Shown here one piece after another: positions 51,690 to 55,696 of a stretch of 64,000 nucleotides of DNA. The position numbers were made by a program, and so were the translations under genes. Position 1 is the first letter of the stretch. Every line of letters begins with the position of its first letter. This DNA is from Acidobacteriota bacterium (lineage in GTDB: Bacteria > Acidobacteriota > UBA6911 > JACQSX01), in contig JACQSX010000033.1 of NCBI GenBank assembly GCA_016211105.1, forward strand, positions 124,001-188,000, in the 5' to 3' direction. Under the pieces are notes generated by a model. That model ran no database searches and was not told the DNA's origin. It saw nothing but the letters and a program-made list of their open reading frames with translations.

Positions 51690-52733
51690 ATGAAGATCAC
51701 GATTCTTGTACTCATCTTGGCATCGGCGGCAGCCTGGGCAATACAAAACTCGCCCGCCACCCCTTCCCAGGAACAAGCGAAGGAAAAGCACTTGAAAAAC
51801 ATTCGCCAACTCACCAGCGGCGGCGAAAATGCCGAAGCCTACTTTGATTTCCAGGGGAAGCGGCTCATCTACCAGTCTACGCACCCCCCGTATACATGTG
51901 ATCAGATGTTCATTCGGGATCTAGGATCGGGAGATGAGAAACTTGTCAGCACAGGCAAGGGACGTACCACTTGTGGATACTTCTTACCCGACGGCCAACA
52001 CGTGATTTATTCATCAACCCACTTAGCGTCGGACCGATGCCCGCCTCGACCCGGTTATGAGCGAGGTTACGTATGGCCGATCTATAAGGACTACGACATT
52101 TTCAAAGCCGACCTGGAGGGACATATCGTGAAACGGCTGACCCAGTTGGATGGGTACGACGCCGAAGCGACCATCCGTCCCGATGGCAAGCGCATCGTGT
52201 TTACCTCGGTCCGGGACGGAGATCTCGAAATATATTCCATGAACCTGGATGGTAGCGGCGTGCGGCGGCTGACTCACGAACCGGGTTATGACGGTGGGGC
52301 CTTTTACTCGCCCGACAGCAAGAGGATCGTCTATCGAGCCTCGCGGCCGCAGGAAGGGGAATTAGTCCGTGATCGTCTATTGCTGAAGGAAGGACTGGTG
52401 CAGCCGACTCAATTGGAGATTTATGTGATGGACGCGGACGGCTCCAACAAAAGACAAGTCACGCATAACGGAGCGGCGAACTTTGCTCCCTTCTTTCATC
52501 CTTCCGGACAAAAGATCCTATTTTCCAGCAACATGAATGATCTCACGGGTCGACATTTTGACCTGTATCTCATCCACCTCGATGGAACGGGGCTAGAGCA
52601 GATCACATTCAGCAATACATTTGACGCTTTTCCCATGTTTAGTCCCGACGGCAAACAACTGGTATTTGCCTCCAACCGCGCCAGCAACCAGCCCGGGGAA
52701 ACGAACGTGTTCCTGGCCGACTGGGTGGAATAA
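51690..52733 (+). CDS. TolB-like beta-propeller (PD40 repeat) exported protein
   Basis: A 347-residue protein with a signal peptide (ITILVLILASAAAWA) and five or six PD40/WD40-like blades, each with a pattern like RPDGKRIVFTSVRDGDLEIY, SPDSKRIVYRAS, HPSGQKILFSSN or SPDGKQLVFASN. It resembles the C-terminal propeller of TolB but lacks the TolB N-terminal domain. The YIYSST-type first blades include paired cysteines (PYTCDQ, RTTCGY). Acidobacteriota carry many such proteins, often beside peptidases, as here. Its 3' end overlaps the open frame of the decayed integrase. Confidence 0.85.
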   Translation: MKITILVLILASAAAWAIQNSPATPSQEQAKEKHLKNIRQLTSGGENAEAYFDFQGKRLIYQSTHPPYTCDQMFIRDLGSGDEKLVSTGKGRTTCGYFLPDGQHVIYSSTHLASDRCPPRPGYERGYVWPIYKDYDIFKADLEGHIVKRLTQLDGYDAEATIRPDGKRIVFTSVRDGDLEIYSMNLDGSGVRRLTHEPGYDGGAFYSPDSKRIVYRASRPQEGELVRDRLLLKEGLVQPTQLEIYVMDADGSNKRQVTHNGAANFAPFFHPSGQKILFSSNMNDLTGRHFDLYLIHLDGTGLEQITFSNTFDAFPMFSPDGKQLVFASNRASNQPGETNVFLADWVE

Positions 52734-53421
52734 GGCGATTGCCTGTAAGAGGCGATGCAAGGCTGTCTAGGGTGATACAGGGATCGGCCCTGCCGGTGAT
52801 TCGTAGTTGTCGCATCACCAATGAGCCTCCCGGACAGAGGGTGCGAAGCAGCCAAATCTGACGGCAAAACTGACACAAAATCAGATGTTTTCGCAGCGGT
52901 TCCTCAAGAGAATGTGGAAGGACCGTCACTCGATCTTTATTGCCTTTTCCGTCGCGAACGAGGATCTGATTGTATCCAAAGTCGACATCTTTGACCCGGA
53001 GCCTAACGCACTCCATCAGCCGTAGACCGGCGCCATACAGCAGACTGGCCATTAGCCATGCGGAGCCTTCCATGAATGCGAGCACTGATTGGACTTCCTG
53101 CCGTGTAAGTACCACCGGGAGGTGGACCGAACTTTTTGCTCTCGCCACATCATCGAGCCACCCGAGCGGCCGTTTGAGAACGTCTCGATAGAGAAAAAGC
53201 AGGGCACTGAGAGCCTGATTCTGGGTGCAAGCTGCCACCTGGCGATCGATGGCCAGGTGTGAAAGAAAGGCGCTCACTTCCTTGGGACCCATTTCGGAGG
53301 GATGCCGCCTGTTGTTAAAAAGAATGTATTTTTTGATCCAGCCCAGGTACGCCTGCTCGGTCCGAATGCTGTAATGCTTGATTCGGATCACCTCGCGAAC
53401 CTGCTCTACTAATTTCGCCAT
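52639..53421 (-). pseudogene. Integron-integrase-like tyrosine recombinase, C-terminally truncated
   Basis: The first 178 or so residues strongly resemble integron integrases: HYSIRTEQAYLGWIKKYI, HPSEMGPKEVSAFLSHLA, TQNQALSALLFLYRDVL, HLPVVLTRQEVQSVLAFM, LLYGAGLRLMECVRLRVKDV (first catalytic Arg) and VRDGKGNKDRVTVLP (catalytic Lys). After PLRKHLI, near 52887, similarity stops: the IntI-specific insertion, the HxxR box and the catalytic Tyr are absent, and the frame continues as unrelated sequence into the end of the propeller gene. It cannot recombine. Toxin-antitoxin cassettes lie upstream in the opposite direction, the standard integron layout. Confidence 0.8.
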
Positions 53422-53602
53422 CAGCTCCCCCTCTCTTACTCATACCCGACCTCTCTTTTCGTATAACAAAACCGCCGCTGCGCGAAATCTGCGAATCAAA
53501 AGAACCCAATCCTATCACTCGGTGTTTTATACCTGCCATTAACCGTATAATATGCGGGCTTTTAGCAGTTATACTTGTAGTTATGCGACGGGGCTGTGGG
53601 GA

Positions 53603-53631
53603 TTGACAAGCGTCACGTGACGAATTACAGT
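53603..53631 (+). promoter_or_regulatory. Promoter with palindromic operator for higBA
   Basis: TTGACA at 53603-53608 and TACAGT at 53626-53631 are separated by exactly 17 bases. The spacer contains the perfect 12-base palindrome CGTCACGTGACG (53611-53622), well placed for repression by the antitoxin. The toxin GTG lies seven bases after the -10 box, so the transcript may be leaderless. Confidence 0.6.
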
Positions 53632-53637
53632 TGATGG

Positions 53638-53919
53638 GTGATCAAGACGTTCGCGGACAGGCACACGCAGGAGCTGTTCGCGACCGGCTGCTCCAGGCGG
53701 CTGTCGCCAGACATCGTGCGGCGGGCGAGGAGAAAGCTTGAATACATCGACTTGGCGGCGCGCCTAGATGATCTTCGAGTTCCTCCGGGTAATCGACTCC
53801 ACAAGCTTGGGGGAGACCGAAGAGGCCAGTACGCGATTGCCGTCAATGACCAATGGCGCATCTGCTTCCGGTTTGTCGATGGCGATGCCTACGATGTCGA
53901 GGTTACAGATTATCACTGA
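53638..53919 (+). CDS. higB: HigB-family toxin (RelE-like mRNA endonuclease)
   Basis: A 93-residue toxin of the HigB type: MIKTFADRHTQELFATG, ARRKLEYIDLAARLDDLRVP, NRLHKLGGDRRGQYAIAVND and QWRICFRFVDGDAYDVEVTDYH. HigB cuts mRNA on the ribosome until bound by HigA. The start is GTG; no Shine-Dalgarno sequence is seen and the promoter -10 box is seven bases away. The toxin precedes the antitoxin, as usual for hig. Together with higA it fills integron cassette 1. Confidence 0.9.
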   Translation: MIKTFADRHTQELFATGCSRRLSPDIVRRARRKLEYIDLAARLDDLRVPPGNRLHKLGGDRRGQYAIAVNDQWRICFRFVDGDAYDVEVTDYH

Positions 53920-53932
53920 GCCGAGGTCACCA

Positions 53933-54247
53933 ATGAGCATTCCGAACACGAGAAAAAAGGAGGTTCGCCCCATCCATCCGGGGGAGTTGCTTCGGGAGGA
54001 CTTCCTCCCCGATTTCGGGCTCACAGTTTCGGGTCTCGCTGAGGCGTTGGGTGTTTCGCGTCAGACCGTCAACGAGCTGCTTCGTGAGCATCGGGCGGTA
54101 ACTCCGGAAATGGCGCTTCGGCTTTCACGTCTGTTCGGAAACTCTCCCGAGTTCTGGCTCAACGCGCAGCGTGCGGTGGATCTCTGGGATGCGGCCCGGG
54201 AAATCGGGCCCGAGGTCAAGCAGATCAAGCCGTTGACCGTCGCATAA
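53933..54247 (+). CDS. higA: HigA-family antitoxin
   Basis: A 104-residue helix-turn-helix antitoxin: VRPIHPGELLREDFLPDFGL leads to LAEALGVSRQTVNELLREH (the DNA-binding helices), then TPEMALRLSRLFGNSPEFWL, the family signature. It begins 13 bases after higB with GAGGT before the ATG. It should neutralise HigB and repress the palindrome upstream. Its TAA stop is part of the attC core box GCATAAC. Confidence 0.92.
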   Translation: MSIPNTRKKEVRPIHPGELLREDFLPDFGLTVSGLAEALGVSRQTVNELLREHRAVTPEMALRLSRLFGNSPEFWLNAQRAVDLWDAAREIGPEVKQIKPLTVA

Positions 54248-54304
54248 CAACGGCATCCAGACTGGCGGCTCTGCGCACCGCAGCTGATGCCGAGAACGTT
54301 AGGC
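54242..54304 (+). other. attC recombination site of integron cassette 1
   Basis: A 63-base site. Outer boxes GCATAAC (54242-54248) and GTTAGGC (54298-54304) are imperfect inverses; inner boxes CGGCATC (54251-54257) and GATGCCG (54286-54292) are perfect inverses; the middle folds as CTGCG-CAC-CGCAG. The crossover would lie at G|TTAGGC (54298/54299). Cassette 1 would start at 53581 (TTATGC after G), so its circular form would have GTTATGC, the exact inverse of GCATAAC. Confidence 0.75.
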
Positions 54305-54321
54305 CGCAGCCACAACTGTGG

Positions 54322-54342
54322 TTGACATACCATCTTAGGTAT
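54322..54342 (+). promoter_or_regulatory. Likely promoter/operator of the second toxin-antitoxin pair
   Basis: TTGACA at 54322-54327 is followed by an inverted repeat ATACC-ATCTTA-GGTAT (54327-54342). No -10 box at normal spacing is convincing; TATAGC at 54351 is 23 bases away. The operator reading is inference from its position just before the toxin gene. Confidence 0.35.
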
Positions 54343-54356
54343 AGTCATGATATAGC

Positions 54357-54638
54357 ATGTGGCGAATCGAAGAGCACCGCCGCCTCGACAAGCAAATCGC
54401 GTTCGCGCCAAAGGAGATTTTGAAGCGCTACGAGAAGTGGAAAGACATCGCCACGTTGTCCGGCCCGCCTGGCTTACGTCTAATCAGAGGGTTTCATGAC
54501 GAGGCTCTGTCGGGTAAGTGGGAAGGTTACCGATCCTCCCGCCTGGGGCTGCAGTGGCGGATAATTTACCGAGTTATTGGCGAAGAGGTATTGTTGCAAG
54601 TCGCTTCGATAACCACTCATGACTATCGGAGGCCCTAG
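54357..54638 (+). CDS. RelE/ParE-superfamily toxin
   Basis: A 93-residue toxin-like protein: MWRIEEHRRLDKQIAFAPKE, then LKRYEKWKDIATLSGPPGLR, FHDEALSGKWEGYRSSRLGL and QWRIIYRVIGEEVLLQVASI. The GxRSSRLGxQWRIIYRV core is typical of RelE-type mRNA endonucleases that adjoin Xre antitoxins. No clear ribosome binding site precedes the ATG. Its stop directly abuts the antitoxin ATG. It occupies integron cassette 2. Confidence 0.85.
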   Translation: MWRIEEHRRLDKQIAFAPKEILKRYEKWKDIATLSGPPGLRLIRGFHDEALSGKWEGYRSSRLGLQWRIIYRVIGEEVLLQVASITTHDYRRP

Positions 54639-54899
54639 ATGAAGGAGTACCGTCCTGCGAAAAAGCGAATCTCCGTTTCGATCGGCGAGTCAGTACGTGT
54701 CGTTCGCCAGCTTCAGGAACTGAGCCAGAATCAGCTTGCTCAGCTCACAGGGATTCCACAGGCCACGATCTCGGCCATCGAGAACGACCGAGTTCGCCTC
54801 GGAGTCGAGCGCGCGAAGGTCTTGGCGAAGGCGCTGAAGTGCCACCCTGGGGTTCTGGTTTTTCCGGGATGGCAGCTTCCCAGTGACGCTGCGGCATAA
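54639..54899 (+). CDS. Xre-family antitoxin
   Basis: An 86-residue helix-turn-helix protein: VRVVRQLQELSQNQLAQLTG, then IPQATISAIENDRVRLGVER and AKVLAKALKCHPGVLVFPGW. It follows the toxin without a gap and has GGAGG before its ATG. It should bind the toxin and the inverted repeat upstream. Its TAA stop again lies inside a GCATAAC box, the start of the second attC-like site. Confidence 0.88.
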   Translation: MKEYRPAKKRISVSIGESVRVVRQLQELSQNQLAQLTGIPQATISAIENDRVRLGVERAKVLAKALKCHPGVLVFPGWQLPSDAAA

Positions 54900-54976
54900 C
54901 ACGGCGTTCGAGCGGACCGCCGCATGGACGGCTCGATGTTTCCGCCTGTGTCGGCAGGCGACCGCCGCTCAACGCC
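54894..54976 (+). other. Second attC-like site, right core box lost
   Basis: Begins with GCATAAC (54894-54900). Inner arms are GGCGTTCGAGCGG (54903-54915) and CCGCTCAACGCC (54965-54976), which pair fully except for one extra base in the left arm, like the extrahelical bases known in attC sites. Where GTTRRRY should follow, the sequence instead runs CAGACC and into a group II intron-like start. The site therefore seems interrupted or deleted at its right edge. Confidence 0.6.
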
Positions 54977-54982
54977 CAGACC

Positions 54983-55430
54983 GTGTGCGCCCGGCATGGG
55001 CGCTGGCTTGGAGGTGGAAGTCCTCCGGAAACCTAATCGCAGGGATCCAAGCGACGCGCAAGGTGTCGATCGCGAGGTCGAGGCTGGAGAAAGTGTGTAG
55101 CGAATCCGCGGGCGGACCTGTCTGCGTGTACGCACAGGCAGGCGTACAGAAACTGGATTGGAGGCGTACGCGGGAGGGCGAGTGGGCACCTGTCTGCGTG
55201 CGGACACGCACAGGCAGGCGTAACCGCAAAGCTCTTGCGATCGGAACCCGTGAGCGTAAATCCGGCCGTGGTGCGGAGAAAGTCGGCGTTCTTGCCCGGG
55301 GAGGTCTCGCCTGACGCCTGAAAGGGCGCCGCCGGGCGACCGGCGGAGCGAGAAGTCAGCAGAGGCCGTAGTAGTCATGTCCGGTGGTGTGGCAAGGGAC
55401 ATCCCTATGCCGATTAGCTGGCTTGAACCA
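54983..55430 (+). mobile_element. Group II intron 5' fragment
   Basis: The sequence opens GTGTGCGCCCGGCATGGGCG, the conserved GUGYG start with a GCGCCC/GGGCGC stem. It continues with a GGAGG-loop-CCTCC stem at 55010-55026, AAGGTGTCGATCGCGAGGTC and GGCTGGAGAAAG, all resembling domain I of bacterial group II introns. Near 55362 GAAGTCAGCAGAGGCCGTAG resembles sequence usually found shortly before the intron reverse transcriptase. No reverse transcriptase core and no domain V are present, so the 3' part was lost. The right edge is approximate. Confidence 0.55.
55116..55222. repeat. Two copies of a hairpin repeat inside the intron fragment
   Basis: ACCTGTCTGCGTG ... CACAGGCAGGCGTA occurs at 55116-55146 and again at 55188-55222. 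Each copy can form a hairpin (CCTG-CTGCGTG with CGCACAGGCAGG). A related CGCCTG...CAGGCG lies at 54944-54961. They are either part of the intron's own structure or a small inserted repeat. Confidence 0.5.
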
Positions 55431-55489: not shown

Positions 55490-55696
55490 ATGACGTTCAA
55501 GGTTGAGATCGAGCAGGAGGAAGACGGTCGCTGGATCGCTGAAGTACTTGAGCTTCCCGGCGCCCTCGCCTATGGGTACCAGGTGAACATGCGCTCGACG
55601 GCAACGATCACAAACCCACCTACAAAAAACAGAGCTCTGCAAGGGTGCGCACACCAAAACCGGTGGCGCCCTTCAACGGCGACGTGTCATCCTTGA
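55490..55696 (+). pseudogene. HicB-like antitoxin, truncated
   Basis: The first 29 residues, MTFKVEIEQEEDGRWIAEVL then ELPGALAYG, match the N-terminal half of HicB antitoxins. After 55576 similarity ends abruptly and the frame runs on as unrelated sequence into the end of pepA. No HicA partner is present. It is likely the stump of a third toxin-antitoxin module cut at the right border of the accessory region. AAGGAG lies 13 bases before the ATG. Confidence 0.6.

Follow-up and report, generated by a model that had tools for sequence, protein, structure and literature searches.

A probable chromosomal integron relic with two toxin-antitoxin cassettes and a second attC site split by a group II intron in an Acidobacteriota genome

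In a 64-kb window of the genome of an Acidobacteriota bacterium (genome G000, contig C22:124001-188000, from an assembly of 3.5 Mb in 52 contigs), a truncated integron integrase gene (intI) lies next to two toxin-antitoxin (TA) gene pairs, each of which closes in the same short box. This arrangement raises the question of whether the locus is what is left of an integron and, if so, what has kept its cassettes in place. It is very probable that the locus is a chromosomal integron relic, consisting of a dead integrase, two TA cassettes at a putative attI site and a second attC site which is split by a group II intron (Table 1). In the following, G numbers other than G000 denote genomes of the same phylum, with C standing for a contig and L for a locus.

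Table 1. Coordinates of the features of the integron locus, numbered within the 64-kb window
Feature	Position	Strand	Basis
Truncated integron integrase (intI)	52871-53421	-	TIGR02249 5e-74, profile 2-179/315; PDB 2a3v 8e-45
Putative attI region	53422-53580	.	Position between intI and cassette 1; C9 copy diverging at the same point
Gene cassette 1 (higBA)	53581-54298	+	Terminal attC match; closed ends complementary 12/12
Promoter-like site TTGACA-17-TACAGT (putative)	53603-53631	+	Consensus scan
higB toxin gene	53638-53919	+	PF05015 3e-18
higA antitoxin gene, stop within attC R'' box	53933-54247	+	TIGR02607 1.3e-32, above cut-off
attC of cassette 1 (boxes R'' GCATAAC and R' GTTAGGC; L'' with one additional base)	54242-54304	+	Model R1, 24.8 bits, E 0.0013
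Gene cassette 2 (relE/xre), left end to intron insertion point	54299-54984	+	attC matches at both ends; own ends pair 6/7
Promoter-like site TTGACA-18-CATGAT (putative)	54322-54351	+	Consensus scan only
RelE/StbE-family toxin gene	54357-54638	+	TIGR02385 4.7e-9, above cut-off
Xre-type antitoxin gene, stop within attC R'' box	54639-54899	+	HTH_3 2.6e-13
attC of cassette 2, up to GT of R' core	54894-54984	+	Model R1 match 54894-54986, 21.4 bits, E 0.0085
Group II intron remnant, ORF-less, inserted in R' core	54985-55414	+	RF02001 83.8 bits, RF01998 37.9 bits
Remainder of split R' core, TAGCT (joined: GT+TAGCT)	55415-55419	+	Sequence comparison
34-nt scrap of IS110-like transposase gene (family by eye)	55577-55610	.	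88% identity to C5 ORF, E 2.9e-4

Integrase remnant and attC-bounded cassettes

The intI open reading frame (ORF) spans 52639-53421 on the minus strand and was described in the first-pass annotation as a truncated integron-type integrase, an assignment which stands on the matches to TIGR02249 and 2a3v. Its extent had to be revised, however, as the homology to IntI is confined to amino acids 1-183 and ends near 52871, with the remainder of the frame consisting of unrelated sequence. The retained part is 59-69% identical to the IntI of many integrons. No further IntI piece that could supply the catalytic C-terminal half was found near this gene, and because IntI is reduced to amino acids 1-183, short of a functional tyrosine recombinase, the locus was classed as a relic and not as a working integron. 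The integrase gene and the cassettes are divergent, on the minus and plus strands respectively, as the integron layout requires. A 22-nt stretch (86%) is also repeated in the start of higA (53927-53948) and in the part of the intI frame that is unrelated to IntI (52815-52836).

The interval between intI and the first cassette is the putative attI region, with the crossover point of cassette 1 placed provisionally at G53580^T53581 from the sequence. A copy of the intI start and of this region, 98% identical and encoding 27 residues of IntI, is present on another contig of the same assembly (L007/L105, G000:C9:603-844) and diverges at the same GTT point. Beyond that point the C9 copy joins an element starting GTTGAACTAAACCGC, which adjoins a tyrosine recombinase gene and whose start is also present on C40 (L005). 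Two other pieces of intI were observed in this genome: a nearly full-length gene on C6 (L004, G000:C6:84-1036), which is frameshifted near residue 98 and approximately 61% identical to a full-length IntI, and a piece on C14 which is truncated by the contig end.

Both gene pairs following the integrase, predicted earlier to be higBA and a relE-like/xre pair, are adjacent, intact and of known type II TA families, with all four genes matching the expected profiles (PF05015, TIGR02607, TIGR02385 and HTH_3). Each cassette is probably a complete type II TA operon with its own promoter; a consensus scan of the region returned two promoter-like sites against 0.7 expected, and a palindrome, CGTCACGTGACG, occupies 53611-53622 in the spacer of the site before higB. 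Promoter function and TA activity are predictions from sequence. Each pair closes in a GCATAAC box, at 54242 and 54894, which holds the TAA stop codon of the antitoxin gene, as had been noticed in the first reading.

To these boxes an attC covariance model (R1) was applied, built from 33 sites found by rule in integron loci of other organisms (L021-L100), with none taken from G000. The first-pass annotation had proposed a nested-box attC at 54242-54304 with a weaker one at 54894-54976, and had suggested a covariance model as the check. Searched against the entire 64-kb window up to an E-value of 10, R1 returned two matches only, at 54242-54304 and 54894-54986, the former also being the top-scoring site of the window in a looser box-and-stem scan. 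The second proposal is likewise upheld by its weaker match, with the exception of its end, since the R' core is broken after 54984 and resumes at 55415. A strict RYYYAAC/GTTRRRY scan misses both sites because GCATAAC deviates from it at one base. Both have an extra base in L'', a feature shared by almost every site in the training loci; in the attC of cassette 2 the stem is formed by GGCGTT(C)GAGCGG and CCGCTCAACGCC.

The ends of cassette 1 provide a further line of evidence. The circular form of this cassette had been expected to pair with its own GCATAAC, and GTTATGC at 53580-53586 does so at 7/7 positions, a pairing which extends to 12/12 (CCGTCGCATAAC with GTTATGCGACGG). This is comparable to intact arrays, closed-end matches of 8-12 bases having been found in those of G075 and C11; in the cassettes of C31 they comprise 2-5 bases.

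A search for HigB and RelE homologues across 396 genomes of the phylum again yielded related pairs as attC cassettes. In G075 a relE/xre pair (78/86% identity) lies within an attC array, on a contig which carries a full-length IntI match (1.9e-121; L226, G075:C315:5381-6334) on the same strand as the array, an inverted arrangement. This is the one case in which a relative was found with the same cassette on a contig with a full-length intI, a comparison which the first-pass annotation had suggested. In G069 a higBA pair (83/84% identity) terminates in an attC. The attC match starts two bases before the last base of the antitoxin gene in G069 (higA end 10674, attC start 10672), G192 (xre, 764 and 762), G075 (xre on the minus strand, 1252 and 1254) and G379 (higA on the minus strand, 8317 and 8319), so that the overlap of the antitoxin stop codon with the start of attC is a repeated layout. 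The result which the first-pass annotation had named as contrary to an integron, namely sites unmatched by an attC model together with relatives carrying the pairs in box-less, non-integron flanks, is not what was observed, with both sites matched and the pairs of the relatives being attC cassettes.

The group II intron in the second attC site

The break in the second R' core is occupied by an element absent from the first-pass annotation. Rfam group II intron domains were matched at 55066-55291 and 55326-55400. The 5' end was placed at 54985 (GTGCG), from which an nhmmer profile of related introns aligns, and the 3' end at 55414 (CCTATGCCGAT) by comparison with introns on C4 and on plasmids. 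Parts of domains D1-D4 match Rfam, with D4 and half of D5 being deleted relative to the C4 and plasmid copies. The intron holds no ORF and so lacks the class C reverse transcriptase which its relatives carry; its relatives and its insertion behind a hairpin suggest that it belongs to class IIC. The exons, ...ACCGT and TAGCT, show the R' core split as GT/intron/TAGCT (slashes marking the junctions) on the top strand, which is the strand of the cassettes themselves.

The usual target of group IIC-attC introns is the attC bottom strand at R'', with one exception in E. cloacae (PMC7923331). Like these introns, the window intron interrupts an attC core between two T residues, with CGT/T in the window against a consensus of TTGT/T; it differs from them in lying on the top strand at R', in cassette orientation, and in being ORF-less and internally deleted. 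On account of its strand, its position at R' and its orientation, it was not filed as an IIC-attC intron. According to PMC7923331, the E. cloacae exception shares the attC top strand and the cassette orientation; the window intron differs from it as a decayed remnant outside the clade of the plasmid introns. The integron, the cassettes and the intron are each of a known kind, and the strand on which the intron is inserted is the less expected part.

Related introns were found at comparable positions. A second remnant in the same genome, on C5, follows an attC-like hairpin (14.8 bits) at CGACGT/GTGTGCC, and an ORF-less copy on C4, the 5' end of which is off the contig, adjoins a ParE-type cassette with an attC. 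In G102 and G304, weak matches to the attC model (19.5 and 16.3 bits) end at the intron start, and in G204 the junctions read GGCGT/intron/TAGGT, the contig not being long enough to reveal an attC. Two class 1 plasmid integrons carry an intron at the same insertion point, in the attC of aadA1 and of aac(6')-Ib4, with the 3' exon TAGATGC. The 5' region of the plasmid intron was matched in no more than nine plasmid records, and a provisional label of Kl.pn.I3 for the plasmid introns was dropped on the basis of this low number. Two plasmid matches which lie among conjugation or replication genes (L234, L235) were set aside. No intron of this type was detected with the nhmmer intron profile in the integron loci L021-L100. 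It should also be noted that two tandem group II introns were seen in G003 (L153, contig C2), the second starting directly at the 3' end of the first (GTCGATT/GCCGGGC).

In a tree calculated without the long branch of the window copy, a single clade (99/98) unites the introns inserted in attC sites and separates them from introns behind other hairpins. There is an even chance that they represent a distinct group IIC lineage specialised for the attC top strand (R' core, CGT/T), occurring in the chromosomal arrays of the phylum and in plasmid class 1 integrons, with insertions which lock cassettes by dividing the crossover core. The window copy would then either belong to this lineage in decayed form or have reached the same target independently. 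When included in the tree, it falls outside the attC clade and beside introns whose 5' exons consist of a hairpin and a T-rich stretch, as would be expected of an ordinary terminator-type IIC intron which took the attC hairpin by chance and stands outside any attC-targeting lineage. That alternative is considered equally apt to be right or wrong: the placement depends on the long branch, and the GT/T at which the R' core is split in the window is also the insertion point of the introns in known attC sites. Use of an attC as a hairpin is, moreover, hard to tell apart from attC specificity.

Decay of the locus and retention of the cassettes

The proposed history of the locus is as follows. This copy of intI has lost its catalytic C-terminal half and, owing to that loss, is unable to recombine cassettes. 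In the second attC, a group II intron entered the R' core on the top strand, probably with the attC hairpin serving as the stem-loop signal and GT/T as the target. Deletion of D4 and of half of D5 would have followed, and the intron is likewise expected to be inactive. Cassette 2 is expected to be fixed at its right end, because the intron splits the crossover core, while cassette 1 retains its attC and may be movable in trans if the cell has an active IntI. No match to the aminopeptidase flanking the relic was found in G001, a genome of the same genus, which therefore offered no empty site for comparison.

In the first-pass annotation no other cassettes were taken to remain, and the two TA pairs were suggested to have resisted loss. 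On this reading, losing them would harm the cell (addiction), and they would be all that selection preserved of a once larger array. This is regarded as rather unlikely. Both TA operons are intact where the integrase, the intron and the DNA to the right have decayed; C31 of the same assembly is also TA-rich, and TA cassettes have been proposed to stabilise Vibrio arrays (cited in PMC7370490). However, integron cassettes very commonly carry TA genes (PMC7370490), and cassettes other than the two pairs remain in the assembly, marked by attC matches on C11, on C31 and at the end of C4, and by weaker ones on C12, C5 and at C4:157030. The cassettes of C11 have non-TA functions, and the short contig C31 (L150) has four attC matches with genes for a ParE-type toxin, a Phd/YefM-like antitoxin, DUF2283 and DUF4160/DUF2442; both contigs are short, so that a binning error is possible. 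In addition, the dead integrase and the split second attC block excision without any selection and would also explain why cassette 2 has stayed, and a single locus yields no statistics on the survival of TA cassettes, leaving resistance to loss unsupported.

Two observations concern neighbouring or similar DNA. Scraps of a relE/xre pair like that of cassette 2 are present on C5 (L101, G000:C5:38692-38803), with 91% identity over 92 nt at the xre start joined directly to its last 27 nt. To the right of the relic, the start of a short ORF (55490-55576, plus strand) had been labelled hicB-like by eye; it had no Pfam match and the label was rejected.

Several results weigh against the locus being an integron relic as described. 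The E-values of the attC matches are modest (0.001-0.009) and come from a short calibration, the folding energies of the attC sites are indistinct from those of shuffled sequences, and four of 20 shuffles of the 64 kb equal the box-and-stem score of 54242-54304; as that score is within chance, the attC call rests on model R1 and on position. The ends of cassette 2 pair with each other at 6/7 positions, with four contiguous pairs, and its restored R' pairs with its R'' at 4/7. No pairing between exon-binding site 1 and intron-binding site 1 (EBS1-IBS1) was found for the window intron when it was sought. Among the relatives, the higBA contig of G044 has no attC match and the higBA of G055 has none at the gene. 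That the TA pairs are ordinary chromosomal operons and the boxes chance inverted repeats, a reading to which the shuffles lend some weight, is nevertheless highly improbable, given that both sites match an independent model, at antitoxin stops and beside an intI remnant, that the ends of cassette 1 are complementary at 12/12 positions and that the same pairs in relatives carry attC.

Relation to known integrons and significance

The chromosomal integron relic resembles known systems in part. The higBA of the Vibrio cholerae superintegron is a TA cassette of a chromosomal integron, and HigBA and RelE-type pairs are common cassette contents (PMC7370490). Like the Vibrio cholerae-type cassettes, each pair of the window is a two-gene TA operon within a single attC cassette. 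In contrast to the superintegron, no more than two cassettes remain, beside a truncated integrase, the stop codon of the antitoxin gene falls within the attC box and the TA activity is predicted. With clusters of attC sites lacking integron-integrases (CALIN) and other relic integrons, the locus shares attC sites and cassettes without a functional integrase gene at the site; it is unlike CALIN in that an integrase remnant and a putative attI are still present.

For the phylum, the results confirm the presence of integrons with TA cassettes and of attC arrays, and show that an attC box which holds the stop codon of the antitoxin gene is a recurrent layout. Intron insertion on the attC top strand, one unusual case in PMC7923331, was seen repeatedly, in several genomes as well as in plasmid integrons, and at a single position. 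If a top-strand intron lineage does exist, it would be a means of locking cassettes and would form a link between environmental and clinical integrons.

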